Positions 41,141-60,093 of a DNA stretch of 64,000 nucleotides are shown here, one piece after another (position 1 is the stretch's first letter; each line of letters opens with the position of its first letter). Location of the stretch: NCBI RefSeq assembly GCF_009792795.1, contig NZ_VKHQ01000004.1:554659-618658 (forward strand), given 5' to 3'. The notes beneath the pieces were generated by a model. It ran no database searches, was not told the DNA's origin, and was given only the letters and a program-made list of their open reading frames with translations. A program made the translations under genes and the position numbers. This stretch comes from Cognatiluteimonas profundi (GTDB lineage: Bacteria > Pseudomonadota > Gammaproteobacteria > Xanthomonadales > Xanthomonadaceae).

Positions 41141-44100
41141 GTTGTTTCTCCGGCTTGGCATGCGCGAAGCGCAGATAAAGGATGGGCAGCAGAATCAGGG
41201 TGAGCGCGGTGGCCGTAATCAGGCCGCCGATCACCACGATCGCCAGCGGGCGCTGGATCTCGGAACCGGGTCCAGACGCGAACAGCAAGGGCACCAGGCC
41301 GAAGGCGGTGATCGATGCGGTCATCATCACCGGCCGCAGCCGTCGCTTCGCGCCTTCGGTGACGCACGTCATCAGGTCAAAACCTTCGGCATGCAGCTGG
41401 TTGAAGTAACTCACCAGCACCACACCGTTGAGCACGGCGATTCCGAGCAAGGCGATGAAGCCCACCGACGCCGGTACCGACAGGTATTCGCCGGTGACCC
41501 AAAGCGCGACGATGCCGCCGACGACCGCGAACGGTACGTTGCTCAGTACCAGCAAGGCCTGGCGCACCGAGCCGAAGGTCGAGAACAGGATCAGGAAGAT
41601 CAGCCCCAGCGCCAGCGGAATGACCAGAGTCAAGCGCGCAGCGGCGCGTTGCTGGTTCTCGAATTGACCGCCCCAGGTGATGCGATAGCCGGTCGGCAGT
41701 TGCACCGATTGCGCGATCTTCACCTTGGCCTCCTCGACGAACCCCACCAGATCACGTCCGACGACGTTTGCGATCACCACGCTGTAGCGGCTGCCCATCT
41801 CGCGATCGATCTTCACCGGCCCGCTGTCGCGGCGCAGCTGGGCGATGCTTTCCAGCGGGACGTCCTGGCCATCGGGCGTGGCGATCCGCAATGCGGCGAA
41901 TTCGGCCGGGGAGAACTTGACCCGGTCCGGCCCGCGAATGACGATCGGCACACGCTGGTTGCCCTCGATCACGGTGCCGGCGCGCTGTCCTTCGATCTGG
42001 ATGCGCAGCGCGTCCTGCACGTCTTCCACCGACAGGCCGTAACGCCCCGCAGCGAGCCGGTCGACAATCACGCGCAGGTACTGCACGCCGTCGTTCTGCA
42101 CGGTGTACACGTCTTGGTTGCCGGGCACGGTCTTCATCAACGCCTCGATCTGCAGCGCGAGTCCATTCAAGGTGGCCAAGTCCGGGCCGAATACCTTGAT
42201 CGCGATATCGCCGCGCACGCCGATGATCATTTCCGATACGCGCATGTCGATCGGCTGGGTGAAGCTGTACTTGATGCCCGGCAAATCATCGAGAACCTCG
42301 CGCAGCCTTGCCATCAGCGCGTCCTTGCCACCCGGGCGCCATTCGCCGCGCGGCTTCAGGATCAGGAACGTGTCGGTCTGGTTCAGGCCCATCGGATCGA
42401 GCCCGATCTCGTCGGAGCCAGCCCGCGCGACCACACCGGTCACCTCTGGCACCCGGGACATCAGCGCCTGCTGGATCTTCAGGTCCAGTGCTGCGGTCTC
42501 CTCCAGGCTGACCGAAGGCAGCTTTTCTATCCCGACGATGATGTCGCCTTCGTCCATGGTCGGCATGAACGTCTTGCCGACCAACAGGTAGATGCCGAAC
42601 GCCACGACCAGCATTGCGCCGGCGGCGATGACGACGGCGCGTTGATGTCCCAGCGCCCAACCCAGCACCGGCTCGTAGCGACGCAGCAACTGCCGGGGCA
42701 GCCACGGCTCTTCATGCGATACCTTCTTGAGCAGGAACGACGCCAGCACCGGGATGACGGTCAAGGACAGCAGCAGCGAACTGGCCAGCGCGAACGCGAT
42801 CGTGAGTGCGACCGGCACGAAGAACTTGCCCTCCAGTCCCTGCAGCGTCATGAGAGGCAGGAACACGACGACGATGATCAGGATGCCGGCCGTCACCGGC
42901 ACGGCGACCTCGCGCACGGCACGGAACACGATGTGCAGGCGTGGCAACTTGCCCGCTGCCTTGTCGTGGCCCAGGTGCTGGACGATGTTTTCCACCACCA
43001 CCACCGCCGCATCCACCAGCATGCCCAGCGCGATCGCCAGACCGCCCAGGCTCATCAGGTTCGCCGACATGCCGGTAAAGCGCATCAGGATAAAGGTGCA
43101 CAGCGCCGCCAACGGCAGGACCAGCGCCACGGTGAGGGCCGCGCGCAGGTTGCCGAGAAACGCCCCAAGCAGTACCAGCACGATGACGGTAGCTTCCAGC
43201 AAGGCCCGGGAGACGGTGCCGACGGCCTTGTTGACCAGTGCCGCGCGGTTGTAGAACACCTTGATCTCGACGCCTTTCGGCAGCGTGGGCTGGAGTTCTG
43301 CGAGCTTCGCGGTCACACCGTCCACCACATCGCGCGCATTGGCGCCGGCCAGGCCAAGCACCAGGCCTTCCACCGCTTCGCCGCGGCCATCTTTGGTGAC
43401 GACGCCGTAGCGAGTGGTCGAGCCGGTTCGCACTTCGGCGACATCGCCAAGGCGCACCGGGATGCCGTCGTTGCGTCCGACCACGACTGCACGCAGGTCG
43501 TCCTGCGTCTGGATATTGCCTTCGCTGCGGACCAGCAGCACCTCATCGCCTTCACCCAGGCGGCCCGCGCCGTCGTTGCGGTTGTTGGCTTCGATCGCTG
43601 CCTTCAGATCCGCGGTCGACAGCCCCACCGCCGCGAGCTTCACCGCATTGGGCTCCACCTCGTAGCTGCGCACCTTCCCGCCGAGCGCATTGACGTCGGC
43701 CACACCCGCCACCGATCGCAGCGCCGGGCGGATCACCCAGTCCAGCAGGCTGCGGCGCTGGTCGAGCGACATGGCATCGCTTTCGACCGTGAACATGAAC
43801 ATCTCGCCCAGGGGCGTGGTGATCGGCGCCATGCCGCCACTGATGCCGTCGGGAAGGTCGCCGAGGATGCCGTTGAGGCGCTCCCCGACCTGCTGCCGCG
43901 CCCAATAGATGTCGGTGCCGTCCTGGAAGTCGATGGTGACGTCGACCAGCCCGTACTTGGTCACCGATCGCAGGATCCGCTGCTGCGGAATGCCGAGCAT
44001 CTCGACCTCGATCGGGATGGCAATGCGACTTTCGATTTCCTCCGGGGTCATGCCGGGCGCTTTCATGATGATCTTGACCTGCGTGCTCGACACGTCGGGG

Positions 44101-44213
44101 AACGCATCGATCGGCAAGGTGCGGAATGCGTACCAACCGGCACCCGCCAACAGCGCGGCGAGCAACAGCATGAACAGGCGCTGCGAGAGCGCGAACTGGA
44201 TCAGTCGCTGCAT
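41133..44213 (-). CDS. czcA: Heavy-metal RND efflux pump (CzcA/CusA family)
   Basis: A 1026-aa inner-membrane proton-driven pump. N-terminal transmembrane segment, then FPDVSSTQVKI and PGMTPEEIESRI, the HME-RND signatures. The central membrane motif reads LGGLAIALGMLVDAAVVVVEN: the second Asp and the Glu are kept but the first Asp of the CzcA type (DFGxIVDG) is Ala, closer to the CusA type. IDMRVSEMIIG holds Met residues near the metal path. So the metal may be Cu/Ag or Zn/Co/Cd; undecided. One base separates it from the czcB stop. Confidence 0.9.
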   Translation of the reverse strand: MQRLIQFALSQRLFMLLLAALLAGAGWYAFRTLPIDAFPDVSSTQVKIIMKAPGMTPEEIESRIAIPIEVEMLGIPQQRILRSVTKYGLVDVTIDFQDGTDIYWARQQVGERLNGILGDLPDGISGGMAPITTPLGEMFMFTVESDAMSLDQRRSLLDWVIRPALRSVAGVADVNALGGKVRSYEVEPNAVKLAAVGLSTADLKAAIEANNRNDGAGRLGEGDEVLLVRSEGNIQTQDDLRAVVVGRNDGIPVRLGDVAEVRTGSTTRYGVVTKDGRGEAVEGLVLGLAGANARDVVDGVTAKLAELQPTLPKGVEIKVFYNRAALVNKAVGTVSRALLEATVIVLVLLGAFLGNLRAALTVALVLPLAALCTFILMRFTGMSANLMSLGGLAIALGMLVDAAVVVVENIVQHLGHDKAAGKLPRLHIVFRAVREVAVPVTAGILIIVVVFLPLMTLQGLEGKFFVPVALTIAFALASSLLLSLTVIPVLASFLLKKVSHEEPWLPRQLLRRYEPVLGWALGHQRAVVIAAGAMLVVAFGIYLLVGKTFMPTMDEGDIIVGIEKLPSVSLEETAALDLKIQQALMSRVPEVTGVVARAGSDEIGLDPMGLNQTDTFLILKPRGEWRPGGKDALMARLREVLDDLPGIKYSFTQPIDMRVSEMIIGVRGDIAIKVFGPDLATLNGLALQIEALMKTVPGNQDVYTVQNDGVQYLRVIVDRLAAGRYGLSVEDVQDALRIQIEGQRAGTVIEGNQRVPIVIRGPDRVKFSPAEFAALRIATPDGQDVPLESIAQLRRDSGPVKIDREMGSRYSVVIANVVGRDLVGFVEEAKVKIAQSVQLPTGYRITWGGQFENQQRAAARLTLVIPLALGLIFLILFSTFGSVRQALLVLSNVPFAVVGGIVALWVTGEYLSVPASVGFIALLGIAVLNGVVLVSYFNQLHAEGFDLMTCVTEGAKRRLRPVMMTASITAFGLVPLLFASGPGSEIQRPLAIVVIGGLITATALTLILLPILYLRFAHAKPEKQHG

Positions 44214-44214
44214 C

Positions 44215-45399
44215 TCATTCGCCTCCGCTTTCGCCGAGCCACGCGGCTTTCAGCGCGATCACGTTGCTCACGGCGATCTCATCGCCCGGCTTGAACGCGC
44301 CATCGACACTGACCGATTGCGCGGCACTGGCAACGACCTTCACTGGCTTGGCCGAGAAACCGGAAGGGGTCCGCACGAACACGTAGGCATCGCCGTCCTG
44401 GCGTACCACCGACGCGATCGGCACCGCCCACGCACCGGCGCTGTCCGCAAACGGCACCTGCGCCTGCACGAACTGGCCCGGGTTGAGTTCCTGTGTCTCG
44501 CCGGCATCGACCCTCGCGCGCAATGTGACCGTCTGGCTTTCGCTGACCAATGCGCTCACGCTCATCGGCGTTGCGGTCAGCTTGCTGCCGACGATCGCGA
44601 TGGTCTGGTCTTTCGACCATGCGTTGGCGCGGTCGGCCGGGAGCTGGATGTCCAGCCACAGTTCGGAAAGATTGGCGACCCGCAACAACGGATCCGCACC
44701 GCTGACGCGTTGGCCGGGCTTGACATCGAGTGCGAGCACCGTGCCAGCTTCCTGGGCACGCAGCAGCAGGCCATCCATCAATGCGCCGCCGCCGGCGATC
44801 CGGCTGATGCTGCCCTGATCCAGGCCTGCCAGCCGCAGCGCGGCCTGCGATTGGCGCAGGCGCGCCTGGCTGTCGTTCGCAGCCAACTCAGCCTCGAACA
44901 CACGACGCTGCGGGATGACGCCTTCGTTGAACAGATTGCGCTCACGCGCCAGGGTCTGGCCGGTCAGGCGCGCGCTGTTGGCCGCTTGCATCAGCGCCAA
45001 CTGCAGCTCACCGAACTCGGGACTGTTCAGGCGCAGCAGGGGATCGCCGCGCCGCACGGTCTGATGTTCGGCAACGAGGATGCGGTCGACCAGACCCGCC
45101 ACCGGCGCACTCAGGATCTGCTCCTGTTGCGGTGGCACGACGACTCTTGCCGGGTAGGTCAACCCGCGGATTTCCGTGGGCGAATCCAGTCGTTGCAGCT
45201 TGATGCCCAGCGCCTGCATCTGCGCGGCGGTCACGGCGAAATCGCCCTTGGGCTGAGCGCTGTCGCCAGCGGGTTCGCTGGCAGGTTCAGCTGCGGGGTC
45301 GCTCGGGACGGTGGACGCGGTGGACCCATCGGTGTCCTTGCCACCGCAGCCGACCAACACGGCGGCAGTGAGCAGGACGCTGAGCAAGCGGATGGTCAT
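44215..45399 (-). CDS. czcB: RND efflux periplasmic adaptor (CzcB-like)
   Basis: A 394-aa membrane-fusion lipoprotein: the signal peptide ends in VLVGC followed by GGKD. An Asp/Glu/Ser-rich linker continues to ~50, then a lipoyl-like half (LSAPVAGLVDRILV), a coiled-coil hairpin (ARERNLFNEGVIPQRR) and beta-barrel domains. No His-rich metal-binding extension is present. It joins CzcA to the outer-membrane tunnel. Its stop is 1 nt from the czcA start. Confidence 0.88.
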   Translation of the reverse strand: MTIRLLSVLLTAAVLVGCGGKDTDGSTASTVPSDPAAEPASEPAGDSAQPKGDFAVTAAQMQALGIKLQRLDSPTEIRGLTYPARVVVPPQQEQILSAPVAGLVDRILVAEHQTVRRGDPLLRLNSPEFGELQLALMQAANSARLTGQTLARERNLFNEGVIPQRRVFEAELAANDSQARLRQSQAALRLAGLDQGSISRIAGGGALMDGLLLRAQEAGTVLALDVKPGQRVSGADPLLRVANLSELWLDIQLPADRANAWSKDQTIAIVGSKLTATPMSVSALVSESQTVTLRARVDAGETQELNPGQFVQAQVPFADSAGAWAVPIASVVRQDGDAYVFVRTPSGFSAKPVKVVASAAQSVSVDGAFKPGDEIAVSNVIALKAAWLGESGGE

Positions 45400-45497
45400 G
45401 GTTGAAACTCCAATGGCTTTGAATGGAAATGAGCGGAACGCATGTGCGCACGGCAGCGGCCCCGCTCATTGAAATCGGCGTTTTTTGCTTAGGTTCG

Positions 45498-45845
45498 TCA
45501 CAGCAGCCGGCGCTTCGCGAGCATCACGTGCGCATCGAGCGTGCCGTCGCGTTCGAGCACCGAGGCGAGGCCGAGGGTGATCCCCGCCCGCTTGAAACCG
45601 CTGGCCTCGCCGCCGCCCGAGACGTTCTCGACGCCCACGCCTGCGACCGGGGGTGGCCGCAACGCGGCGCGCTCCAGGTCGGCATCCAGTACGGCGCGTT
45701 GGCCCTGCGGCAAGCGCAGGTCGGGATCGAACTGGTCAACGTGCGCGAACGCATCGTCCAGGGTCAATACAGCACGCGACTGTGCGTGTGCGGGAATGCA
45801 CAGCACAGCCGTCATGGCGGCCAAAGCCGCCAGACGCAACCACAT
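45498..45845 (-). pseudogene. Truncated outer-membrane efflux gene (CzcC N-terminus)
   Basis: A 115-aa frame with a signal peptide (MWLRLAALAAMTAVLCIPAHAQ) followed by LTLDDAFAHVDQFDPDLRL and ASVLERDGTLDAHVMLAKRRLL. This matches the first ~110 residues of CzcC-like tunnels (LTLDEAF and SxxLERGG-type motifs) and then stops, about 300 residues short. An RBS (GGAG) precedes the ATG. It may still be translated as a small secreted peptide. It sits where czcC normally heads the operon, so a deletion and later replacement by the operon-end gene is the likely history. Confidence 0.75.
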
Positions 45846-45897
45846 GGGGAATTCTCCGATTCGGGGTGACAGCAAGCCGGCAGCGCCGGCGACAGCG

Positions 45898-46266
45898 TCA
45901 GGCCGAGATCGGTGGTCGTAAGGCGACCGGGTGGGCGCTCGGCCGGAACTCGACCGACCATTGCGGCAGCGGATCGGTCGCGGCCGGGGTGATGGAACCC
46001 AGGTTCATCAGCGCCAGCAGCGCCGGGGCCTGGCCACAGCAGTGGCCGAAGTGCATCAACGCATGCCACGGGCTCTTGGGATCGGCAGGATCGATCGGAT
46101 CCGACGATCCGTCGTCGGCATCGCCGTTGTCACCGGTCAACTGTGCATGCTCGACTTCGTGCAACTCGCCGGCGAACGCAATCACCGGCTTCACCAGCAC
46201 ACCGGCCATCAGCAGGCAGAGAATGAGGATCCGTAACACGGTCGGCATTGAGGTCGGCGCGGGCAT
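45898..46266 (-). CDS. Small CzcI-like exported protein
   Basis: A ~122-aa protein with an N-terminal hydrophobic segment (VLRILILCLLMAGVLVK), then an acidic stretch (Asp/Glu-rich ~50-75), then WHALMHFGHCCGQAP, a His/Cys cluster that could bind metal. Small proteins of this kind precede czc operons, where CzcI modulates the response. Start uncertain: ATG at 46266 or six codons inside. The sequence match to CzcI itself is weak; position supports the call. Confidence 0.6.
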   Translation of the reverse strand: MPAPTSMPTVLRILILCLLMAGVLVKPVIAFAGELHEVEHAQLTGDNGDADDGSSDPIDPADPKSPWHALMHFGHCCGQAPALLALMNLGSITPAATDPLPQWSVEFRPSAHPVALRPPISA

Positions 46267-46358
46267 AGTCGTCAGGGTAACCGACGCAGGGCTTCGCAAA
46301 CAATTTCCTTGCCTCAGCAGCAAATCATTGCCAATGACGGCTGTGGGTCGAAAGCTGA

Positions 46359-46677
46359 CAGCAAGGCGACCTCAACCACTTCAAGCCTTTCAATGATCAG
46401 TACGGCTATTTCCGTGGCGACCGGATGATCCTGCTTGCGCAGTCCGCTCTGCGCAATGTCGAATCGTCCGTGGATTTCATCGGCCACATTGGCGGGGACG
46501 ATTTCATCGCGCTATTCCACAGCGACGATTGGGAGAATCGTTGCCACTCGATCGTCGACATGTTCAACGAGGCGGCACGCCCGCCGGCACCATCGGATCG
46601 GCGAAGGAAATGGCCTCGCTCGCCGCAGCTGCCAAGCGCCAAGCCAAGCGCGGAAACATCGGCGGCGCTTGGTGGCC

Positions 46678-46680
<3 letters not shown>
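46359..46680 (+). pseudogene. GGDEF-domain gene fragment
   Basis: The frame from 46359 reads DLNHFKPFNDQYGYFRGDR and then HIGGDDFIALFHSDDW with a CHSIVDMFN tail, clearly part of a diguanylate-cyclase-like GGDEF domain in which the loop is GGDDF. A stop precedes it at 46356, no start codon is present, and a frameshift near 46590 moves the rest (AKRQAKR-type helix) to another frame. It is a remnant, overlapping the katG 3' end. Confidence 0.75.
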
Positions 46681-48906
<2,226 letters not shown>

Positions 48907-49824
48907 AGCGTCTCTCCGGTTAGCACGCCCCTGGCCCGCCGAGAACTCTTACGCAGAACCAATATTCAAAATGTGAAACGCCTGATCGCGCGCTGCTATT
49001 CAGAAATTCAACTGGAGCGACCCGGCGTCTGAGGCGACCCGGCCCGATTCCGCCTGCCAACGAGAGCTAGACGGGACGGGACGCCGGGCATTTCATCGAC
49101 CACCTGTCGCACGAGCAAGCTCGACCGCGGGGACTAGGACGGGCGTGCCTATGCAGGTTTATCCCGGACTCCAGCTTCGTGCCTGGGCGCCGCGGAATAG
49201 TGCATGCCACGCGAAGCAATCCGTCTCCAGACTCCGATGTATCCAGTGGTCGGTCCCCAACCCCCGCGCCCAGCGCCCAGCGCCAGCAACCAAACTTGGA
49301 CGCCGTATTTAGTTGATTGTTAAAAATTATGCGAGCACGGAATTTTTCGCCTTACTCGCATTCTTACTCGTGTCCGCGGACCTATGGATATGGATCGTTG
49401 TCCGGATCCGTTGGATTGATTCAACAACGATCGCAGCCTTTGATGCGCGACGCGAAGCGGCCGCTCCCTCCGCTGTAGCAAGCCAAGTAACTTTGGGTCA
49501 AGCGCCGTCTTTTTCTGCTCTTGGACTGGCCGAACTCAACATTCTTTTTCGAAAGCACTGATAGCGGGCCCAGTCCGTGTGCGCACCTTCCACGGGGCGT
49601 CGATCGGTTGATTGGCCGAGAGCATGTTGCTAAGTCCCCGCCATGGCCTCAGCGCGTGAGCCATTTCACTAGCGCAAGTTCGACTCCTTAAAAACGGGCA
49701 ACGTCGATAGCGTTTAATTGCTCGGCTGCGGGTCAAATGTGCCGCTCTCGCAAAACGCGCGCGCCTCACAAGCCATTCAGGATTGTGCTACGGTCCGGGG
49801 CTGGCGCCACGGGGGGAGCCGCAA
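48907..49824. other. Low-coding region between katG and the CsgG-like cluster
   Basis: About 0.9 kb with no convincing gene. The stretch near 48955-49010 and the one near 49310-49420 are AT-richer than the surroundings. GCGACCCGGC is repeated at 49017 and 49037, and CGCCCAG is tandem near 49268. No clear promoter, integrase or tRNA remnant is seen. It may hold the katG and cluster promoters. Confidence 0.6.
49313..49561 (+). CDS. Possible 82-aa membrane protein (doubtful)
   Basis: A TTG-started frame in the low-coding region with one hydrophobic segment (FFALLAFLLVSADLWIWIVV) and a polar tail. No RBS and no known family. It may be chance. Confidence 0.2.
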   Translation: MIVKNYASTEFFALLAFLLVSADLWIWIVVRIRWIDSTTIAAFDARREAAAPSAVASQVTLGQAPSFSALGLAELNILFRKH

Positions 49825-50994
49825 TTGACAGGGACGCGATTGCTCACCGCACTGGCGGCGACTGTGCTCGGCTGCGCGCCGCTGATGGCCATGGCGCAGG
49901 CTGGCAGGTCAGTTTATTTCGCCGGCTTCGCCTATACGGGCAACGCGGCCGATGTAAGCAGCACCTTGCCGGTGACAACCCGCGTTCTCGACGACGCCGG
50001 CGGTGCGGCATTGAACGCACGCCTGAAGGCGGCCCTCGCGGGGCGGACGTTCCCCGGCTACACCCTCGTCTTCGACCACTACGGGACGGTCGGTGACGCG
50101 GACAACGACACGGCCCTGGCGCTGTCCATCGATCGCGAAACCGCGAGCTCCGAGCAGATCGGGGACCAGTACAAAGTGCTGGTCGAACTGGGGACGCAGG
50201 CGCTGTTCTTTGACTTCGACGAGAAACAGGTGCTCGGCGCCTACCCGATCACGCTGCAATCCATCGATGTCATGTCGCATGCCCCCACGCCAGCGGATTT
50301 CGAGCGGATGGTGCGGCATCTGATCACCGGGACCGACGCGACATCCCTGGTCCCCGCGTTCGCCAATCGGCTGGCGACAATTGCCTTGCCTAATCCGGCG
50401 ACGCGGCGGCTGCGCGTGACGCACGTCGATGTATCGCCCGAGGCTTTGAAGCTGGCCCCGGCTGCCTACCAAGCATCCCCGGATCGCCTGGGTGGCCAGG
50501 TTGCCTTCGAATTCGGCAAATTCCTTGCGGAAAACCAGCATGTGGCACTGCTGCCTTACAGTCAGGGCAATGCCATCGGCGGCGCCATGGCGGCCCGCTT
50601 CGCGGATGGCCGGGTGTACCAGCTGCAAATCCCGGATGCGGACTATGCGATTGCCTTGTCGCTGCGCGGATTCAAGCGTATCGACCAGCCAGGCACCGCG
50701 GTCGGCCGGGCCATCGTGTACGGCGCCTTCGTCGATGTCAGCGTCACCGAGCCGATGTCCGGCAAAACCTACTTCAACCACCCGATCAAGTATGGCGCGA
50801 CCAAAGTCGTGCCTGTGACGCAGGTCAACGTCGATGACTGGGCAGCCAGCTACGAGACGCTGCTGCTGCTGTTCGACGACTTTAGCAAGGCGATCGGCAA
50901 GCCCGATGCCGGATGGGCCGCGGTCCACCTGGGCGATCGCAATGCACGCAATGACCTGACCCACCTCAAGGAGCTGATCGAGCAATGTCGATGA
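49825..50994 (+). CDS. Exported protein of unknown family, first gene of CsgG-like cluster
   Basis: A 389-aa protein with a signal peptide (LLTALAATVLGCAPLMAMAQ). I do not recognise the family. It begins the mature part with SVYFAGFAYTGNAADV, has DLITGTDATSLVP-like middle parts, and ends NDLTHLKELIEQCR. It has few Cys and no transmembrane segment beyond the signal. The start is TTG at 49825, with GGGGGGAG six bases before; an ATG would lie 40 codons inside, past the signal. Its stop overlaps the next gene by 10 nt, so the four genes form an operon. Confidence 0.72.
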   Translation: MTGTRLLTALAATVLGCAPLMAMAQAGRSVYFAGFAYTGNAADVSSTLPVTTRVLDDAGGAALNARLKAALAGRTFPGYTLVFDHYGTVGDADNDTALALSIDRETASSEQIGDQYKVLVELGTQALFFDFDEKQVLGAYPITLQSIDVMSHAPTPADFERMVRHLITGTDATSLVPAFANRLATIALPNPATRRLRVTHVDVSPEALKLAPAAYQASPDRLGGQVAFEFGKFLAENQHVALLPYSQGNAIGGAMAARFADGRVYQLQIPDADYAIALSLRGFKRIDQPGTAVGRAIVYGAFVDVSVTEPMSGKTYFNHPIKYGATKVVPVTQVNVDDWAASYETLLLLFDDFSKAIGKPDAGWAAVHLGDRNARNDLTHLKELIEQCR

Positions 50995-52124
50995 TTTCGC
51001 GTTTCGTGGCCTGCGCGCTGTTGCTGGCTGCCGGCTGCAGCCCGGCTTTGGCGGAGACGCCCTCGGTGAAGGGCATGGCCAGCGTCCCCTACCAGCGCAA
51101 GCTGGACAGCGGTGTCCGTCAGCAAGCGCTGGCTTCGGCCAAGCTCAATGCGCTTGAGCGCTACGTGGCGGACAGCAACGCGGCGCGGATGCGCGTGTTC
51201 GACGAAAAGCGCACCCAGATAGCCGGCGCCGTTGACAGCTACATCCTCGGCGCGACGGTGCTATCGGAGTCCGACGATAAGGATGCCCACACCTATTCGG
51301 TGGTGATCCGGGCCGACGTCAACGGAACGCGGCTGCAGAACGCGCTGGGCGCCAGCGCGTCGGCGCCCGCCGCATCCCAGGGCCAGGGCAACCTGATCAC
51401 GTTCCTGTTCATGGCGCGCATGCAGGACTCGGTCAAGTCCTTCCAGGACCGCGTCTACCAGCGCGCGGATGTGCACGGCTCGGGCAGCCACGCCTCGAAC
51501 AAGCATGAGCAAACCACCGAATCCGAATCGATCGGAGCCTCATCGATCGGCACCGGCGACCGCATCCGCTCCCATACCTCCGAGCGTTCGGACTCGACGA
51601 TGGTTGTCGAGTCCGGCGGCAGCGTCACGCGCAAGGCCGACAAGATCGACTGGACGGTCACACCTTCGAGCGAGATCAACACGGCCATGACCGGTGTGTT
51701 CTCCGATGCGGGGTTCCAGGTGGTCGAGGCCGAATACGTGGAGTCCGAAAGCCACGGACTGCTGAGCATCGCGGCCGTACGCAAGGATTTCAGCAAGGGC
51801 GATGAACTGGCGCCGGCGACGATGCGCAACACCGCCAACGGCGTCCGCGCGGCCGGCATTGGCTACCTTGCCGAGGGCACGCTGGACGTCGGCATTCGCG
51901 ACACCGATCCGGTCAGCGGAAATGTCCGCGTGTTCGTGACCGTCACCGGCAAGGTGCTTGACGTTGGTGGGCGCTTTCCACGCACGCTCTCGTCGGTCGG
52001 GCCGGTGCAGTACGCCGGACTCGGTCCCACGGAAACCGTCGCACGGACAAACGCTCTCAAGCTCGCCGCCGAGAGCGCCGCGCGGCAGATGGCGGACGAG
52101 TTGACGGCAAAAGGCATTCGTTGA
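50985..52124 (+). CDS. Exported protein with LPP20/FlgT-like N-terminal part
   Basis: A 379-aa protein with a signal peptide ending near SPALAETP. Residues ~30-125 (KGMASVPYQRKLDSG, then ALASAKLNALERYVAD) recall the LPP20/FlgT N-terminal fold of outer-membrane proteins. A Ser/His-rich linker with repeated SGSHASNKHEQ-like sequence lies at ~165-215. The C-terminal half is beta-rich (DVGIRDTDPVSGNVRVFV). Family match is by pattern only. A second ATG lies two codons in. 45 bp separate it from the next gene. Confidence 0.7.
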   Translation: MSMISRFVACALLLAAGCSPALAETPSVKGMASVPYQRKLDSGVRQQALASAKLNALERYVADSNAARMRVFDEKRTQIAGAVDSYILGATVLSESDDKDAHTYSVVIRADVNGTRLQNALGASASAPAASQGQGNLITFLFMARMQDSVKSFQDRVYQRADVHGSGSHASNKHEQTTESESIGASSIGTGDRIRSHTSERSDSTMVVESGGSVTRKADKIDWTVTPSSEINTAMTGVFSDAGFQVVEAEYVESESHGLLSIAAVRKDFSKGDELAPATMRNTANGVRAAGIGYLAEGTLDVGIRDTDPVSGNVRVFVTVTGKVLDVGGRFPRTLSSVGPVQYAGLGPTETVARTNALKLAAESAARQMADELTAKGIR

Positions 52125-52169
52125 GTTTCCTGGTTTCAACCTCGCTTGATCATCCATTGGAGCCCTTCC

Positions 52170-52856
52170 ATGAAGAAGCACCTGCTTTGCGCCACGATCA
52201 CGGCATCGCTGTTGGCAGTTGCCACCCCCGCAATGGCGGTTGGCCTGGGTGGCCTGTTCAAGCAAGCCACCACGCCCGCGGCCACCACGCCGGCCGGGGC
52301 GACTGGCGCACAGCCAGCTGATCCAGCTGTTCAGCAAGACGCCCTGGTGAGCAGCTTTGTGGCCGCCCAGGCGGAGACGCTGGTCGCGCAGATCGCGTTC
52401 TCGAAGGCGTTCGGACTCAAGGAGCAGGCGGCCACGCTGCAGGCCGAGCACGATGCGCTCGGCAAGGGTCCGCTGGACAAGGACGGCCTTGCGAAGCTGA
52501 CGTCAACGACGTCGGATGCCAACACCGCGCTGAACGCGAAGCTTGCCTCGGAGACCGTGGTGTCCGCGGAAGGCAAGAAGGACTACGCCACCGGCTTGGG
52601 GCATTACCTGCGCGCCGTAGTGCAGACGCTTGCACTGACCAAGCAGGTGCAGGGATTCACTACGAGCCTGACGCAGGGAAGCATGTTCCAGAGGGGCCAA
52701 ATGTTGACCAAGCTTGCCGTCGGTGCCTACGTCGCCAAGGCGACTCCGGGTTTTTCGAAGGTGCTGTACGACACGAGCAAGAAGGCCGTGACGTTCGCCA
52801 CGAAGAACAAGATCCCGGTGCCGAAGGATGCGACGTCCGCCCTCGGTAGTCTGTGA
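52170..52856 (+). CDS. Exported helical protein in CsgG-like cluster
   Basis: A 228-aa protein with a clear signal peptide (MKKHLLCATITASLLAVATPAMA). The mature N-terminus is Gly/Ala/Thr-rich (AVGLGGLFKQATTPAATTP); the rest is predicted mostly helical (VSSFVAAQAETLVAQIAFSK, LGHYLRAVVQTLALTKQ). No family is recognised. ATG at 52170 has GGAG seven bases upstream; the longer TTG frame is rejected. It overlaps the next frame at its stop. It may be a periplasmic partner or the cargo of the CsgG-like protein. Confidence 0.7.
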   Translation: MKKHLLCATITASLLAVATPAMAVGLGGLFKQATTPAATTPAGATGAQPADPAVQQDALVSSFVAAQAETLVAQIAFSKAFGLKEQAATLQAEHDALGKGPLDKDGLAKLTSTTSDANTALNAKLASETVVSAEGKKDYATGLGHYLRAVVQTLALTKQVQGFTTSLTQGSMFQRGQMLTKLAVGAYVAKATPGFSKVLYDTSKKAVTFATKNKIPVPKDATSALGSL

Positions 52857-52867
52857 GGTTGCGGCCC

Positions 52868-54481
52868 ATGTCGCTTCAGCCAGCTAGGCTCCTGCATGCA
52901 GCCGCACTGGGACTCGCGCTATGCGTCGGCGCGTGTCATGGCAACGACGGTCCTCCGGTCCCTGCGGCGGCATTGGTCGCCCCTGCTGCCGGGCCGGGTG
53001 CGCCGGGGCGCAAGGCTCCTGACTTTGGCGGCGTGGAAAAAGTCCGTATCGAAACCACTGCGACCGGCCCGACACTGCCGGCCGCAGTCGATGCCGCCCT
53101 GCGCATGGCGGTCGAACAGGTGAACGGCAAGGTGGTGTCGGCATCGCATACAAGCATCACCAGTGGTATCTCCGTGGCAACGCAGGGCGAGTCCGTCGAC
53201 GTCACGGCGTCGTCCTTCGCCGATGTCGTTGCCTCGCAGTCGGGCGGTGCCATCAGTGATTTCAAGATCCTGCGCCAGCGCCAGATCAGCCGCCCCCTGG
53301 AAACCACCGAGGAAAAGTTCGACGGGTCCCAGGGCGAAAGCTATAGCCGCGGGAACCTGTCGGCCTCTGAGTCGGCCGAGGCGCATGCGGGCGATGCGTC
53401 GGCGGAAGTCGCAGCGGAGGCGCAGGGCAATTGGGACCAGAAGCAAGGTGCGGTCGATGCGCACTGGTCGCGAAAGCAGCAGCGGATGCAGAACGAATGG
53501 GAGGTGACGATCGCCGCCCGCGTTGCGCATTACCGCGAGTCGGCGGACGCCAAGCGGCCGCGGTTGGTCGTTGCGATGCCGCGCACCGCAACCGACTCGT
53601 TCGTCGTGGGCGATCGGCCCATCGACTCTGCCCAGTTGGCGGCGCAGATTCGAGGGCGATTGTCCGATGCGTTGACCCAGACGCAGCGGTTTACCGTGCT
53701 CGACCGTGAGTTCACCGGCGAGATTCGCAACGAGCTGGATTTGATCGGCTCAGGCATGGTCAAGTCCGAGGACATGGCGCGCGCGGGGCAGATGCTCGCA
53801 ACCGACCTGATCCTGATTCCGACCATTGAGCGGTTTGAGTACCGCCGCTCCGAGCGCAAATTGCGGCTGGCCGACCGCACCTTGGTGTCGTATGCGGGTG
53901 GTGGTGCGATTTCACTGAAGTTGATCAACGCCGTCACCGGCCAAGTAGTGATGTCCCAGACGTTCGAGGCCGGCCTACCGAGCACGGCGCCCACGACGCT
54001 GGGTAACTTCGTCGACGGCGGCAAACTCGCCAACACCTTGATGGATTCGCTCGGCAAGGACATGGCGCGGGCCTTGTTACTGCACACGTTTCCGGTGGCC
54101 GTCATCAGGTTGTCGGGTAATGACGTGGTGTTGAACCAAGGCGGCCAGGCGGTCTCGATCGGAACTCGTTACCAGGCAGTGACGCTTGGCGAGGACTTAA
54201 AGGACCCACAGACAGGACAATCGCTAGGCCCGATGGAATCGCCATGCTGCGTCATTGAAGTCACGCGCATGGGCCCAAGCGTTGCTTACGGACGCATCGT
54301 CGACCCTGGGTTCAATCTGCCGAATTTCCATCCGGGAATGATCGAGTTGCGCGAATCGATACAAGCGCAGCCTTCTCCCGCACAAGCCAAGCCTGCGGTG
54401 GTCGCGAATGCAACACCGGCGCCCGAACGGCACGCCTCCAACAAGGTCAAGGCGCAGCCCGCGAAAGACGACGACTGGTGA
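52868..54481 (+). CDS. CsgG-like outer-membrane lipoprotein
   Basis: A 537-aa predicted lipoprotein: a signal segment ending CVGAC at ~residue 26, then a linker. Residues ~60-115 form an LPP20/FlgT-like repeat (AALRMAVEQVNGKVVSAS). Residues ~240-400 match the CsgG pattern: RFTVLDREFTGEIRNELDL, then AGQMLATDLILIPTIERFEY and the strand GGGAISLKLINAVTGQVVMSQ. A Pro/Ala/Lys tail closes it. CsgG forms the curli secretion pore; this one is larger and no csgA/B/E/F is present. Start ATG at 52868 or GTG at 52853. Followed by a terminator, so it ends the operon. Confidence 0.78.
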   Translation: MSLQPARLLHAAALGLALCVGACHGNDGPPVPAAALVAPAAGPGAPGRKAPDFGGVEKVRIETTATGPTLPAAVDAALRMAVEQVNGKVVSASHTSITSGISVATQGESVDVTASSFADVVASQSGGAISDFKILRQRQISRPLETTEEKFDGSQGESYSRGNLSASESAEAHAGDASAEVAAEAQGNWDQKQGAVDAHWSRKQQRMQNEWEVTIAARVAHYRESADAKRPRLVVAMPRTATDSFVVGDRPIDSAQLAAQIRGRLSDALTQTQRFTVLDREFTGEIRNELDLIGSGMVKSEDMARAGQMLATDLILIPTIERFEYRRSERKLRLADRTLVSYAGGGAISLKLINAVTGQVVMSQTFEAGLPSTAPTTLGNFVDGGKLANTLMDSLGKDMARALLLHTFPVAVIRLSGNDVVLNQGGQAVSIGTRYQAVTLGEDLKDPQTGQSLGPMESPCCVIEVTRMGPSVAYGRIVDPGFNLPNFHPGMIELRESIQAQPSPAQAKPAVVANATPAPERHASNKVKAQPAKDDDW

Positions 54482-54492
54482 GGGCGCCAAAC

Positions 54493-54520
54493 AAGGAACC
54501 GGCGTCACGCCGGTTTCCTT
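54493..54520 (+). terminator. Hairpin terminator after the CsgG-like cluster
   Basis: AAGGAACCGGCG pairs with CGCCGGTTTCCTT across a TCA loop, one bulged T. It starts 12 bp past the stop. No long T-run follows (GGGGG), so termination may be partial. Confidence 0.6.
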
Positions 54521-54751
54521 GGGGGTCGCGCCCAACATTCAGGAGAGCCCGGTGCCGCTGTTCTCCACGCCCCGCGCCGTTGACTGGCCACCGGTAACGT
54601 CCGCGCAGCGGCGGATAGACTGATGCATGAGGTCAGCCCCACGGCACCCTATGTCAATCAACGACACCCGCCTTCGCCACAATGACAAGAATTCCAGCTA
54701 CCGGCGAATGGGCAAAGCGACTATCCATTCCCGCCGGAACGGACTTGAATG
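54521..54751. other. Intergenic, no supported gene
   Basis: About 230 bp between the terminator and the tRNA. The short frames (for example 54627-54809) run into the tRNA and are not genes. Confidence 0.6.
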
Positions 54752-54762
54752 TGGTGGGCCCA
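54751..54762. repeat. Candidate attachment site at tRNA 3' end
   Basis: GTGGTGGGCCCA, covering the complement of the CCA end and acceptor strand of the tRNA on the minus strand. The same 12 bp recur at 39400-39411 in direct orientation, on the 3' side of the tRNA, where integrating islands insert. Confidence 0.4.
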
Positions 54763-54827
54763 CCAGGACTCGAACCTGGAACCAAAGGATTATGAGTCCT
54801 CTGCTCTAACCATTGAGCTATGGGCCC
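54752..54827 (-). tRNA. tRNA with anticodon CAU, probably tRNA-Ile2
   Basis: 76 nt with encoded CCA. The acceptor stem is GGGCCCA/TGGGCCC, the D-arm contains AGCTCAATGGTTAGAGC, the anticodon loop is CTCATAA (CAU), the T-arm is GGTTCGAGTCC. The acceptor starting GGGCCC and the D-loop fit the lysidine-modified tRNA-Ile (k2CAU), which reads AUA. Elongator tRNA-Met shares the anticodon and cannot be fully excluded by eye. Confidence 0.9.
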
Positions 54828-54853
54828 GCGCCGGCATTATCGCCGCGCGGGGC

Positions 54854-55114
54854 TCAGCGGCGGCGAACGATGTTCTTCTCGACGATCGCCCACAGGATCA
54901 GGCCGTACGCCAGCAGCCGGACCAGGTAATACAGGGTGGCTTCTTCGCTGCGGGCGCCGTTCCAGGCAAACAGCGCGCGGTTGATCGCCTCGAGCAGGAA
55001 TGACGCGCCGAAGTAGAGGAACAGGCGGTCCCGGGTCCGGCGCCAGAAGCGCAGGAACAACAGCGCGGCCACGGCCGAACCCATCGAGATGGCGCCGAGC
55101 AGGAACAGGTTCAC
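54854..55114 (-). CDS. DUF5985 family small membrane protein (second of pair)
   Basis: An 86-aa protein with three hydrophobic segments, starting MNLFLLGAISMGSAVAALLFLRFW. The DRLFLYFGASFLLEAINRALFAW stretch is the family-typical middle. The GTG start has GAGGAG eight bases upstream, inside the end of the preceding gene. Function unknown. Forms a tandem pair with the 85-aa gene upstream and follows a winged-helix gene; all three are coupled. Confidence 0.78.
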   Translation of the reverse strand: MNLFLLGAISMGSAVAALLFLRFWRRTRDRLFLYFGASFLLEAINRALFAWNGARSEEATLYYLVRLLAYGLILWAIVEKNIVRRR

Positions 55115-55115
55115 G

Positions 55116-55373
55116 TCAGTGCTCCTCGAAGATCAGGCCGTACAGCAACAGCGCCACCGCCAGCAGGCCACTGCACAAACGCAGCGGGCCCAGGTCGACC
55201 TCGCGGAACAGGTAGTGGTCGGCGATCACCAGCAGGTTGGTCAGGGTCAGGCCGGCAAAACACAGCCCGCTCCAGAAGAGCATGCGCGAGCCGGTGCGGC
55301 GCGCGCCCAGCAGCAGCAACACGCTGCATGCCAACGCGGTCGATGCGCACAGCGCATAGATCAGCAGCACCAT
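55116..55373 (-). CDS. DUF5985 family small membrane protein (first of pair)
   Basis: An 85-aa protein with three hydrophobic segments and the same layout as its neighbour (RTGSRMLFWSGLCFAGLTLTNL, then HYLFREVDLGP). The two are paralogues. Its stop is one base from the GTG of the next gene. Function unknown; relatives occur in pairs. Confidence 0.78.
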   Translation of the reverse strand: MVLLIYALCASTALACSVLLLLGARRTGSRMLFWSGLCFAGLTLTNLLVIADHYLFREVDLGPLRLCSGLLAVALLLYGLIFEEH

Positions 55374-55374
55374 C

Positions 55375-55752
55375 TCAACTCTCCTTGCGCAGGCGGAAGG
55401 CGTCGGCGAAACGCTGCGCCTTGCGGTCCGAGGTGGAATGGATCAATTCGGCGATGACGACCATGTGGCGCGCGTACAGCGCGGCGACCGCGTCGACATC
55501 GGTCGCGACAGCGGGGTCCCGCGGCGCGTAGCGGCACCCGTCGTCGTCGCACGCCACCAGGCCGACAGCGGCAAGGTCGCCGATCAGGGTGGTTGCCGTG
55601 CCCGCGTCGATGTACAGGCGCGCCGCCAGCTGCGCCGGCGTCCAGTGCTCCGGGCGCTCGCGCAGCAGCAGCAGCGCCTCCAGGTGCGGAACCGTTGGAA
55701 TCGTCGCCAGCAGGAACCTGCGGACATCCCCGGGCAATTGCGAAACAGTCAT
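55375..55752 (-). CDS. Small winged-helix-like protein
   Basis: A 125-aa soluble protein. Residues ~20-75 look like a wHTH (PEHWTPAQLAARLYID, then ATTLIGDLAAVGLV); the C-terminal ~40 residues are helical (HMVVIAELIHSTSDRKAQRFADAFRL). It may regulate or sense for the membrane pair encoded right after it, with a 1-bp gap. No family name recognised. Good start ATG at 55752. Confidence 0.7.
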   Translation of the reverse strand: MTVSQLPGDVRRFLLATIPTVPHLEALLLLRERPEHWTPAQLAARLYIDAGTATTLIGDLAAVGLVACDDDGCRYAPRDPAVATDVDAVAALYARHMVVIAELIHSTSDRKAQRFADAFRLRKES

Positions 55753-55821
55753 CGAGACGAAGCTTCCCTGATTTTGTCCGCTGCGGCAAACGCGCTAGCG
55801 CATGATCCCGGCGTTCCAATC

Positions 55822-55852
55822 AAAAAAAACCCGCCTTTCGGCGGGTTTTTTC
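55822..55852. terminator. Bidirectional terminator between rpoD and the small-gene run
   Basis: A-run plus CCCGCC (30-35) pairs with GGCGGG plus T-run across a TTTC loop, at 55822-55852. It lies 22 bp past the rpoD stop and has a T-run on either strand. Confidence 0.92.
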
Positions 55853-55873
55853 CGGGTGCGCGCTGCCTTCCCG

Positions 55874-57757
<1,884 letters not shown>

Positions 57758-57786
57758 GTCACCGGAAAGGGTGTAGGGAACCCTGC

Positions 57787-57792
57787 ATTATA
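57787..57792 (-). promoter_or_regulatory. -10 box upstream of rpoD
   Basis: TATAAT (minus strand) lies about 30 bp before the rpoD start. No consensus -35 at the usual distance is visible. Confidence 0.5.
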
Positions 57793-57899
57793 CTGCGCAG
57801 GCAGGGGTTGCGCCCGTGTTGCTGCGCGCCGCCGCGCCGCGCGGGAGCAGCGAGACTCTCGGGCTGCCAACGGCGACGCAAGCCAAAGCCAGCCAGGGC

Positions 57900-58340
57900 T
57901 CAGGCCCGCAGCAGGAAGGTCACCGGGCCGTCATTGATCAGGCTCACCGTCATATGGGCGCCAAATCGGCCGATTTCCACCCCCGGCGCGTGTTTTTGCC
58001 GGCACGATGCCACCAGCCTGTCGAACAGCGGTTCAGCTTCGGCGGGCGCCGCGGCCGTGCTGAATCCCGGGCGCATGCCCGACGCGGTGTCCGCGGCCAG
58101 AGTGAACTGGCTGACCAGCAACAGGCCGCCGCCGCAATCGGCCAGCGAGCGGTTCATGCGCCCGGCGTTGTCGGCGAAGACGCGATACCCGAGCAGGCGC
58201 TCGGCCATGCGTGCGACCTGGGCCTCGCCATCGCCGGGTTCGATGCCGACCAGAGCCAGCAACCCCGGACCGATCGCCCCCACGGTGTCGCCGTCCACCT
58301 CGACGCGGGCTTCGGTGACGCGCTGGATCAATGCGAGCAT
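57900..58340 (-). CDS. dtd: D-aminoacyl-tRNA deacylase
   Basis: A 146-aa enzyme that frees D-amino acids from t[19 protein letters not shown] opens it, the [15 protein letters not shown] motif (SQFT) is central, and the Gly-cisPro motif shows as NDGPVTFLL at the C-terminus. ATG at 58340 is chosen; the longer frame is the complement of the acyltransferase gene, which is divergent. About 140 bp separate it from rpoD on the same strand. Confidence 0.94.
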
Positions 58341-58402
58341 GGATCGATCGTCCGCGTTCGCACCGCGCGCAGTCAATCCGACACTGCCCTTAGACTGCGC
58401 CG

Positions 58403-59323
58403 ATGTTCGCCGACCGCATCGCTGGATTGCTCTTCGCGCTCGCCGCGGCGGCCGCGAGCCTGCCGCGGCGATGGCTGGATGCGCTCGCCGATGGCATCGC
58501 CGCGCTATGGCGCAGGCTCGATGCGCGCGAGAGCCGCGTCGCGCGTCGCAACCTGGAGCTGGCGCTGCCCGCGCTCGCGCCCGATGCACGCGACCGTCTG
58601 CAGCGCGCGGTCCTGCGCGCCACCGCGCGCCAGGCGCTGGAGACGCTGCGGTTCTGGACGCGCCCGCATGCCCGCAACCTGGCGCTGATCCGGGAGACGC
58701 ACGGCGCCGAGCTGTTCGACGCCGCGCTGGCCAGCGGGCGCGGCGTGATCGTTGCCGCGCCGCACTACGGCAACTGGGAATTGCTGAACCAGTGGCTGGC
58801 CTCGCGCACGCCGCTGGCGATCCTGTACCGGGCACCGGAATCACGCATCGGCGAGGCCTTCCTGCAGCGCGTGCGTGCCGATGCCGGCGATCGTGTGACG
58901 CAGGTGCGCGCCGAAGGTCCCGCCGTCCGCCAGTTGTTCAAGCGACTGAAGGATGGCGGCGTGGTCGGCATCCTGCCCGACCAGCAGCCCAAGGCCGGCG
59001 AAGGGGAATTCGCGGCGTTCTTCGGGGTGCCCGCGCTCACCATGACCCTGCTGTCGCGGTTGGCCTCGCGCAGCGGCGCGGTGGTGTTGTTCGGGTATTG
59101 CGAACGCATCGACGGCTCGGCGGATTTCCGCCTGCGTTTCGAGCCGGCGCCCGACGCGCTGGCGTCGAGCGATGCGGCCGTCGGCGTCGCGGCACTCAAC
59201 GCCGCCGTCGAGCGCATCGCCCGGCGCGACCTCGCCCAGTACCAGTGGACGTACAAGCGCTACACGCTGCAGCCGCCGGGCAGCGCGGTGGACAACCCCT
59301 ACCGCGACCTGGAGCGGCACTGA
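58403..59323 (+). CDS. Lipid A biosynthesis acyltransferase (LpxL/HtrB family)
   Basis: A 306-aa inner-membrane acyltransferase. It begins with a hydrophobic anchor ([15 protein letters not shown]). The catalytic motif HYGNWE (Hx4E) lies near residue 120, and [16 protein letters not shown] is the second conserved block. It adds a late acyl chain to lipid A precursor. Which chain (LpxL or LpxM) cannot be read from sequence. TGATG overlap with the next gene shows a coupled pair for LPS assembly. Confidence 0.87.
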
Positions 59324-60093
59324 TGGCGGCACCGCTACCGCTGTCGGGTGTCGTCATCGCGAAGGATGAAGGCGATCGCATCGGTCGCTGCGTCGCCAGC
59401 CTGGCCGCGATCTGCAGCGATGTCCTCGTGCTGGATTCGGGATCCACCGACGACACCGTCGCCGCTGCCACCGCCGCCGGCGCCCGCGTGGAGCAGCAGC
59501 CCTGGCTGGGTTTCGCCGCGCAGAAGAACGTCGCCATCACGCGTGCGCGGCAGCCGTGGGTGCTGTTGCTCGATGCCGACGAATGGCTGGATCCGGGCGC
59601 GCCGGCAGTGCTGCGTGGCTTGTTCGACAGCGGCAAGGTCGAGGATGCCGATGTCTGGCGCCTGCTGCGGCGCACGCATTTCCTGGGCACGGCGCTCAAC
59701 CATGGTGGCTGGGGCAGGGAGAAGGTCGAGCGCCTGTTCCGCAATGACCTGCGCTATCGACCGGCTGACGTGCACGAACGGCTCGACCTCGACGGGCGCC
59801 GCGTCGCCGACCTGCCCGCGCGCATCGAACACGACACCGCGCGCAGCGACGGCGAGTACGCCGCGAAGCTGCAGCGCTACGCCCGCCTGTGGGCGCAGCA
59901 GCAGCGCAGCGAAGGCCGCCGCGCCGGCGCGCTCGCCGCGCCGCTGCACGCGGCCGCGTATTGGCTGAAGAACGTCGTGCTGCGCGGTGGATTCCTCGAT
60001 GGTCGCGGTGCGCGGCGCTACCACGCGCTGCACGCGCGCTACGTCCACGACAAGTACCGGCTGCTGCGCGACGCCTCGAGCGCGGTTGCCTAG
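59323..60093 (+). CDS. GT2 glycosyltransferase (WaaE/KdtX-like)
   Basis: A 256-aa GT-A enzyme. SGVVIAKDEGDRIGRCVASL opens it, DSGSTDDTV and LLLDADEWL (DxD-like) follow, and HGGWGREKVERLF with VHERL is typical of the WaaE/KdtX group that adds glucose or heptose to the LPS core. It overlaps the acyltransferase (ATG inside TGATG) and converges with the next gene by 4 bp. Substrate inferred from context. Confidence 0.85.
   Translation: MAAPLPLSGVVIAKDEGDRIGRCVASLAAICSDVLVLDSGSTDDTVAAATAAGARVEQQPWLGFAAQKNVAITRARQPWVLLLDADEWLDPGAPAVLRGLFDSGKVEDADVWRLLRRTHFLGTALNHGGWGREKVERLFRNDLRYRPADVHERLDLDGRRVADLPARIEHDTARSDGEYAAKLQRYARLWAQQQRSEGRRAGALAAPLHAAAYWLKNVVLRGGFLDGRGARRYHALHARYVHDKYRLLRDASSAVA

Follow-up and report, generated by a model that had tools for sequence, protein, structure and literature searches.

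The P1-P4 operon and its conservation

The window analysed here is a 64,000-nucleotide stretch of the Cognatiluteimonas profundi genome (contig NZ_VKHQ01000004.1, positions 554,659 to 618,658), in which four plus-strand genes, hereafter P1 to P4, encode exported proteins around a lipoprotein of the CsgG superfamily. A previous sequence-only reading had described them as overlapping or near-overlapping genes for exported proteins, which was borne out by their coordinates and by the signal-like N-terminal sequences recognised by eye on all four products. P1 and P2 overlap by 10 nucleotides, P2 and P3 are separated by 45 nucleotides, and P3 and P4 by 11. The genes, and the parts of their products to which we refer below, are the following.

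49825..50994, plus strand: P1, exported protein of 389 amino acids, no known family, TTG start (list of open reading frames, profile searches)
50985..52124, plus strand: P2, exported protein of 379 amino acids, Lpp20/FlgT_N-like domain followed by a TolB_N/CsgG-like domain (model, fold search)
51432..51644, plus strand: P2 insert, residues 150-220, Ser/Thr/Gly-rich, of low confidence (predicted local distance difference test, pLDDT, <50; composition; partly conserved motifs)
52170..52856, plus strand: P3, exported protein of 228 amino acids, probably helical (by eye), no known family
52868..54481, plus strand: P4, lipoprotein of 537 amino acids with a FlgT-like N-M-C domain plan (model, Pfam, lipobox)
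53303..53503, plus strand: P4 insert, residues 146-212, Ser/Ala-rich, alternating polar and non-polar residues, low-confidence strands
53552..54100, plus strand: P4 domain of the CsgG/FlgT_M/TolB_N superfamily, residues 229-411 (Pfam CsgG, VIA)
54098..54361, plus strand: P4 C-terminal FlgT_C/TsaP-like domain, residues 411-498 (profile match)
54365..54478, plus strand: P4 residues 500-537, low-confidence linker and conserved acidic-aromatic C-terminus, -DDDW (pLDDT <50 at 500-531, alignment)
54482..54533, no strand assigned: strong hairpin after P4 (folding energy compared with shuffles)

The four genes co-occur in this order across several genera far beyond chance. A sample of 149 genomes of the family was searched with P4 and with profiles of P1, P2 and P3. 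The same five genomes contained these three proteins and a full-length P4, whereas the remaining 144 contained none of the four. Near full-length P4 matches came from the window genome (G000) and from G071, G098, G124 and G109, in the last of which the match lies in two pieces; the other 18 P4-matching genomes gave only weak matches, with E-values no better than 3.4e-12, and most of these fell in the CsgG-like core. This all-or-none distribution upheld the idea of a conserved operon around a CsgG-superfamily lipoprotein. Within its own genus the operon was present in one of six sampled genomes, that of the window. Scanning named genomes by means of the P2 alignment yielded 26 loci in Stenotrophomonas species, Xanthomonas chitinilytica, Lysobacter spongiicola, Dyella and [Pseudomonas] hibiscicola, and the order P1-P2-P3-P4 was kept in all 26 (in L062, P4 is cut by the contig end). 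Cupriavidus metallidurans CH34 carries all four genes in order on a megaplasmid. In family f108, P2 was found in six genomes, each of which has the four genes in the same order, and the sample of that family gave strong P2 matches in 5 of 200 genomes together with one weak match that was not accompanied by the other three genes. P2 was rare in the class and phylum samples (4/369 and 7/398 genomes, weak matches to other genes counted), and a first scan of genome contigs with P4 alone as query returned no relative. The overlap between P1 and P2 measured 10 nucleotides in 19 of 20 loci and 13 nucleotides in the remaining one.

Comparison of the f108 copies with those of Stenotrophomonas indicated that distant hosts seem to have exchanged a single gene of the operon, P4, at its own position, with P1-P3 retained. 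In three f108 genomes (G912, G1015 and G1012; loci L088, L089 and L090), P1, P2 and P3 are 50-58%, 51-59% and 38-46% identical, respectively, to those of the three other f108 genomes, and 28-38% identical to those of Stenotrophomonas locus L028, whereas their P4 proteins share 62-66% identity with that of L028 and 31-37% with the remaining f108 copies. The P2 tree placed all six f108 rows together (support 100/100). In the P4 tree, the same three genomes fell inside the Stenotrophomonas/Xanthomonas group (88/99, which is below the star threshold of the tool), and the other three f108 rows stood apart (100/99).

None of the groups of open reading frames flanking the operon in the window (44001-60000) was in common with 13 other loci. 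Most sharing of flanks was within the Stenotrophomonas/Xanthomonas loci or within the f108 loci; one group joins the f108 locus L087 to four Stenotrophomonas/Xanthomonas loci. Upstream of P1, on the opposite strand, lies a gene whose product was identified by eye as a KatG-like catalase-peroxidase (46678-48906, minus strand); it has an apparent signal peptide, so it is possibly a periplasmic enzyme. Downstream of P4 are a tRNA-Met gene on the opposite strand and an rpoD-like gene (the latter by eye). Inspection by eye of the open reading frames at 47000-57500 recognised no flagellar genes, and the earlier statement that neither curli nor flagellar genes lie nearby held, none being recognised beside the operon. 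The hairpin that had been proposed to end the operon is real (-34.3 kcal/mol, z -4.56, a value reached by 0 of 200 shuffles), but no plus-strand T-run accompanies it and the terminator scan, which overall gave no more candidates than shuffled sequences, reported it on the minus strand only.

Predicted folds of the four proteins

P4 carries a lipobox-like motif (VGAC) and matched Pfam CsgG over residues 229-375 with 37.8 bits (cut-off 20.8), being the only CsgG match of the genome at E ≤ 0.001. Its score against Pfam LpoB was 20.0 bits, just below the cut-off of 22.3, and that of C. metallidurans P4 was 22.5, just above it. Pfam searches of 22 P4 relatives at E ≤ 0.1 reported CsgG in 21, LpoB in 18 and FlgT_M in 10; in P1-P4 themselves none of the FlgT_N, FlgT_M and FlgT_C models matched up to E 1, and P4 had no Pfam match to LysM. 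A single-chain model of P4 built from 22 sequences (mean pLDDT 69.5, predicted template modelling score, pTM, 0.51) gave as best Foldseek matches a chain of the LPHT ring (8z5n_0, 9.4e-16 over 474 columns) and FlgT (3w1e, 9.9e-16 over 452 columns), with CsgG behind FlgT at 6.8e-6. In its predicted fold, P4 thus carries the domain plan of FlgT ahead of that of CsgG. VIA comparisons, which covered mainly residues 228-430, returned CT253 (Z 16.3), FlgT (15.4), XCC0632 (14.8), CsgG (13.2) and PelC (13.1), so that the core by itself cannot tell these families apart. The C-terminal domain matched TsaP-type LysM-domain proteins by sequence profile (6ve2 at 2.4e-5, 3jc8 at 1.3e-3). Taken with the lipobox, the Pfam CsgG score and the FlgT fold match agree with the previous description of P4 as a lipoprotein with an LPP20/FlgT-like and a CsgG-like part. 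The protein ends in a Trp that follows Asp or Glu in 18 of 18 aligned operon copies and in C. metallidurans CH34, and the linker preceding it is poorly conserved.

In a model built from 19 sequences (mean pLDDT 71.4, pTM 0.48, pLDDT <50 at residues 150-220), P2 resembles the first two domains, N and M, of the P4 plan. Foldseek related its first domain to Tip-alpha (1.6e-3) and Lpp20 (2.6e-3), and by fold comparison its second domain is similar to TolB, CsgG, PelC and the M domain of FlgT. VIA aligned P2 with TolB at Z 12.0 and with FlgT at Z 10.2, the latter with a root-mean-square deviation (rmsd) of 17.3 over both domains, and the P2 profile weakly found a FlgT-like gene in a flagellar locus. 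The proposed similarity between the N-terminal parts of P2 and P4 therefore stands by fold, where P2 is Lpp20/Tip-alpha-like, but was not supported by comparison of the P2 and P4 profiles (hhalign probability 4.6%). The insert of P2 is located between the first strand and the first helix of the TolB/CsgG-like domain. Its candidacy as an amphipathic pore stem was rejected, the alternation of hydropathy being at chance in the window copy (reached by 979 of 2000 shuffles); alternation was clear against shuffles only in L079 (20/2000), followed by P0006 (78/2000).

P1, P2 and P3 reached no cut-off in Pfam or NCBIfam (best E 0.017-0.72), as the sequence-only reading had anticipated for P1 and P3, which it assigned to no known family. 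With the PADLOC and PHROGs models for anti-phage defence and phage, no family was matched at E ≤ 0.01 by any of the four proteins, and phage records searched with P2 gave no match. Inspection by eye suggested that P1 consists of two tandem TolB_N-like domains; profile comparisons of P1 with P4 and with P2, as well as a PDB profile search with P1, returned nothing. A single Cys near the P1 C-terminus, the only one after the signal region, is present in 21 of 21 copies. We discarded it as a functional residue: in 20 of 20 loci in which P1 precedes P2 (50976-50994 in the window, and 19 others) the Cys codon is overlapped by the P2 ATG, and its conservation follows from this overlap (xxA TGx), which forces Cys, Trp or stop. 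The sole independent argument for the Cys is a P1-like protein of genome G464, which keeps it without the overlap. P3 is mostly the least conserved of the four in the identity table.

A putative FlgT-plan complex and its alternatives

In the CsgG/FlgT superfamily, ring formers make up secretion channels as well as flagellar rings. We consider it about as likely as not that the four proteins form a dedicated complex of the cell envelope that is not flagellar, namely a ring or scaffold of FlgT plan anchored at the outer membrane. In favour are the all-or-none distribution, the constant gene order and the recurrent P1-P2 overlap, the fold matches of P4 and P2, the TsaP-like C domain of P4, the FlgT_M matches among P4 relatives, and the absence of shared flanks between the window and 13 other loci. 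The arrangement described next is inferred as regards assembly into a ring, its location and what P1, P3 and the tail do. The P4 lipoprotein, with its FlgT-like N, M and C domains, would probably be anchored in the outer membrane on its inner leaflet; P2, which has N and M domains, would be its soluble partner in the periplasm. Two obligate extra subunits may be provided by P1 and P3, the four proteins together most likely forming a periplasmic ring or scaffold beneath the outer membrane, and the aromatic tail of P4, carried by a flexible linker, may act as a peptide for docking.

Several results weigh against this proposal. Whole-chain superpositions of P4 were poor (rmsd 25-28, template modelling (TM) score 0.22-0.34; for FlgT 3w1e, rmsd 25 and TM 0.24/0.34), so that the match between P4 and FlgT is one of domain order and not of domain placement, and the pTM of the P4 model is low. 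The Foldseek E-values of P2 were weak (best 1.4e-3, none <0.001) and, with the negative profile comparison of P2 and P4, leave the assignment of P2 resting on fold. The flagellar protein FlgI was detected in G464 and in all but one of the 11 four-gene genomes. To our knowledge, TolB, LpoB and LptE share the CsgG/TolB_N fold without forming rings, and since the fold is common to such proteins it does not prove a ring.

The last point leads to a reading in which the proteins would be LpoB/TolB-like regulators that form no defined ring and connect the outer membrane with the synthesis of peptidoglycan or with envelope integrity. LpoB is known to bind and activate PBP1b. The near-cut-off LpoB scores of P4 from the window and from C. 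metallidurans point in this direction, as do TolB being the best alignment of P2 and an LpoB-like gene (by eye) adjoining one of the related clusters described below, in L097. We nevertheless regard such a role as rather improbable: the FlgT domain plan is complete in P4, which goes beyond the single domain of LpoB, and P1 and P3 have no place in the scheme.

A flagellar accessory ring, analogous to the H ring and encoded apart from the flagellar cluster, would account for the FlgT-like fold of P4. FlgT and FlgO form the H ring of Vibrio, with FlgP associated (PMC6504787). Flagellar association was judged in our analysis by FlgI alone, which was absent from the genome of the window (99.98% complete), although that genome keeps the four genes open; a strict flagellar ring role is therefore unlikely there. 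The presence of FlgI in 10 of 11 four-gene genomes would allow a loose flagellar link elsewhere, but its base rate in the family is already 80/149, and the positives include 4 of the 5 genomes that carry the operon. On a single contig of G741, about 1.4 Mb separate the operon (2.51 Mb) from FlgI (1.13 Mb). These data, and the fact that P4 is a lipoprotein with an extra tail, make the flagellar explanation quite unlikely.

The sequence-only reading had placed its emphasis on a CsgG-type secretion pore. CsgG spans the membrane by means of two beta hairpins in each protomer. In the P4 model there is a single long hairpin (strands 314-332 and 337-354), which on inspection is rich in Arg, Glu and Asp, and only 13 residues lie between strand 360-370 and the helix at 384, the site of the second CsgG hairpin. 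The span aligned by VIA was 183 residues in P4 against 204 in CsgG (6lqh), figures that come from a single-chain model in which rearrangement is possible. P4 thus seems, in the model, to lack room for a second membrane hairpin. The Ser/Ala insert of P4 could itself be a hairpin: its alternation was reached by 1-39 of 2000 shuffles in 14 of the 15 copies with an insert, the short insert of L. spongiicola being the other (193/2000). This is weak evidence, because the copies are relatives of one another and alternation is about as good in a stretch of P4 that lies beyond the insert (from residue 51; 15/500 shuffles), and the insert is absent from three f108 homologues. Curlin repeats (PF07012) were found in none of 12 genomes, namely 11 with the operon and G464, the E. 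coli control being positive. Membership of a curli system was rejected on these three grounds, the missing curlin repeats, the apparent lack of room for a second hairpin and the closer FlgT fold, and the emphasis on a CsgG-type pore was not supported. A pore formed by P4 is possible and not favoured; in the particular form of a CsgG-type outer-membrane secretion pore with P3 as secreted cargo or its chaperone it is quite improbable, in spite of the Pfam CsgG match, the CsgG Z value and the low conservation of P3.

The non-flagellar ring or scaffold can also be cast in a bolder form, which we put forward as a speculative possibility. Here two or three related FlgT/TolB-type proteins (P4, P2 and perhaps P1), with the helical P3 as their partner, would form the ring of a new outer-membrane machine, the alternating Ser/Ala hairpin of P4 would reach into or through the membrane in most lineages, and P4 would be an exchangeable surface or specificity module. 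Such a module would explain the swap of P4 alone between Stenotrophomonas-like genomes and three f108 genomes.

The folds and the superfamily are known. What is new, as far as the literature searched goes, is their combination, the proteins P1 and P3, the setting outside flagella and the P4 exchange; no description of the four-gene operon was found there. If the ring or scaffold reading is true, the FlgT ring plan has been put to use in a further structure of the envelope, together with two families lacking known relatives. Hosts of the operon include the tractable C. metallidurans CH34 and Stenotrophomonas, which makes the proposal directly testable. In PMC8159010, a protein of S. maltophilia K279a with CsgG, LpoB and FlgT-middle labels is called a curli transport component; if this protein is a P4 orthologue, the curli label may be misleading.

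Related clusters and known systems

Genome G464 (1.6 Mb) carries a five-gene cluster (L071, 3465-10272) encoding DUF6844, P2-like, P4-like, P3-like and P1-like proteins between trpG-like and trpD-like genes (by eye). The P3-like gene was a weak match (hhalign probability 46%, E 2e-4). A twin-arginine-like signal was recognised by eye at the start of the P1-like protein. DUF6844, of which the literature searched yielded no mention, occurred in 5 of 229 genomes of the class, and CsgG/FlgT-like genes adjoin it in 5 of 5 loci. The DUF6844-CsgG pairs (L097-L101), which belong to other gammaproteobacteria, and the G464 cluster share with the operon a FlgT/CsgG-like protein, L071 having in addition the P2-, P1- and weak P3-like genes, and they differ from it in the presence of DUF6844. 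They also share a terminal aromatic tail, located there on the DUF6844 protein, which ends in Phe in six of six loci (L071, L097-L101), whereas the CsgG-like neighbours have no terminal aromatic residue. Unlike P4, the four CsgG-like proteins checked (L071, L099, L100 and L101) show no lipobox pattern and no terminal Trp. The aromatic C-terminal tail may possibly be a docking peptide common to P4 and the DUF6844 proteins.

In L097 (4268-8747), the DUF6844 and CsgG-like genes stand beside genes for LpoB-like and COG3014-like lipoproteins (names by eye), which suggests a peptidoglycan context for that branch. A Caballeronia plasmid (L103, 5319-14665) carries P1-P2-P3 and, upstream, a distant P4-like gene, whose product ends in Tyr, and a gene for a 219-amino-acid protein ending in -ADEF; a 'cell wall anchor protein' gene and integrases follow P1-P2-P3. 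Another cluster of exported proteins (L081, 7857-15330) encodes a FlgT_N/LPP20-like protein (below cut-off), two lipoprotein-like proteins, repeat-like proteins, and a 667-amino-acid protein that is CsgG-like by eye.

Among known systems, the CsgG curli channel resembles P4 in the 229-375 domain and in lipidation; unlike it, P4 adds N and C domains, apparently has no second membrane hairpin and is not accompanied by curlin repeats in any of the 12 genomes tested. The C-terminal part of TsaP, the type IV pilus secretin-associated protein, is matched by the P4 C domain, but P4 has no LysM match and the N-terminal domains differ. Lpp20 and Tip-alpha of Helicobacter pylori are similar to the first domain of P2 in fold only, and P2 adds to it a TolB/CsgG-like domain and the insert. 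LpoB approaches the P4 core in its Pfam score, while P4 has more domains and three co-occurring partners. With FlgT of the Vibrio H ring (3w1e; LPHT ring 8z5n), P4 shares the N-M-C order and P2 the N and M domains; unlike FlgT, P4 is a lipoprotein and has a tail of low confidence tipped by an aromatic residue, no flagellar genes were recognised next to its operon, the window's genome has no FlgI, and its partners P1 and P3 match no flagellar family.

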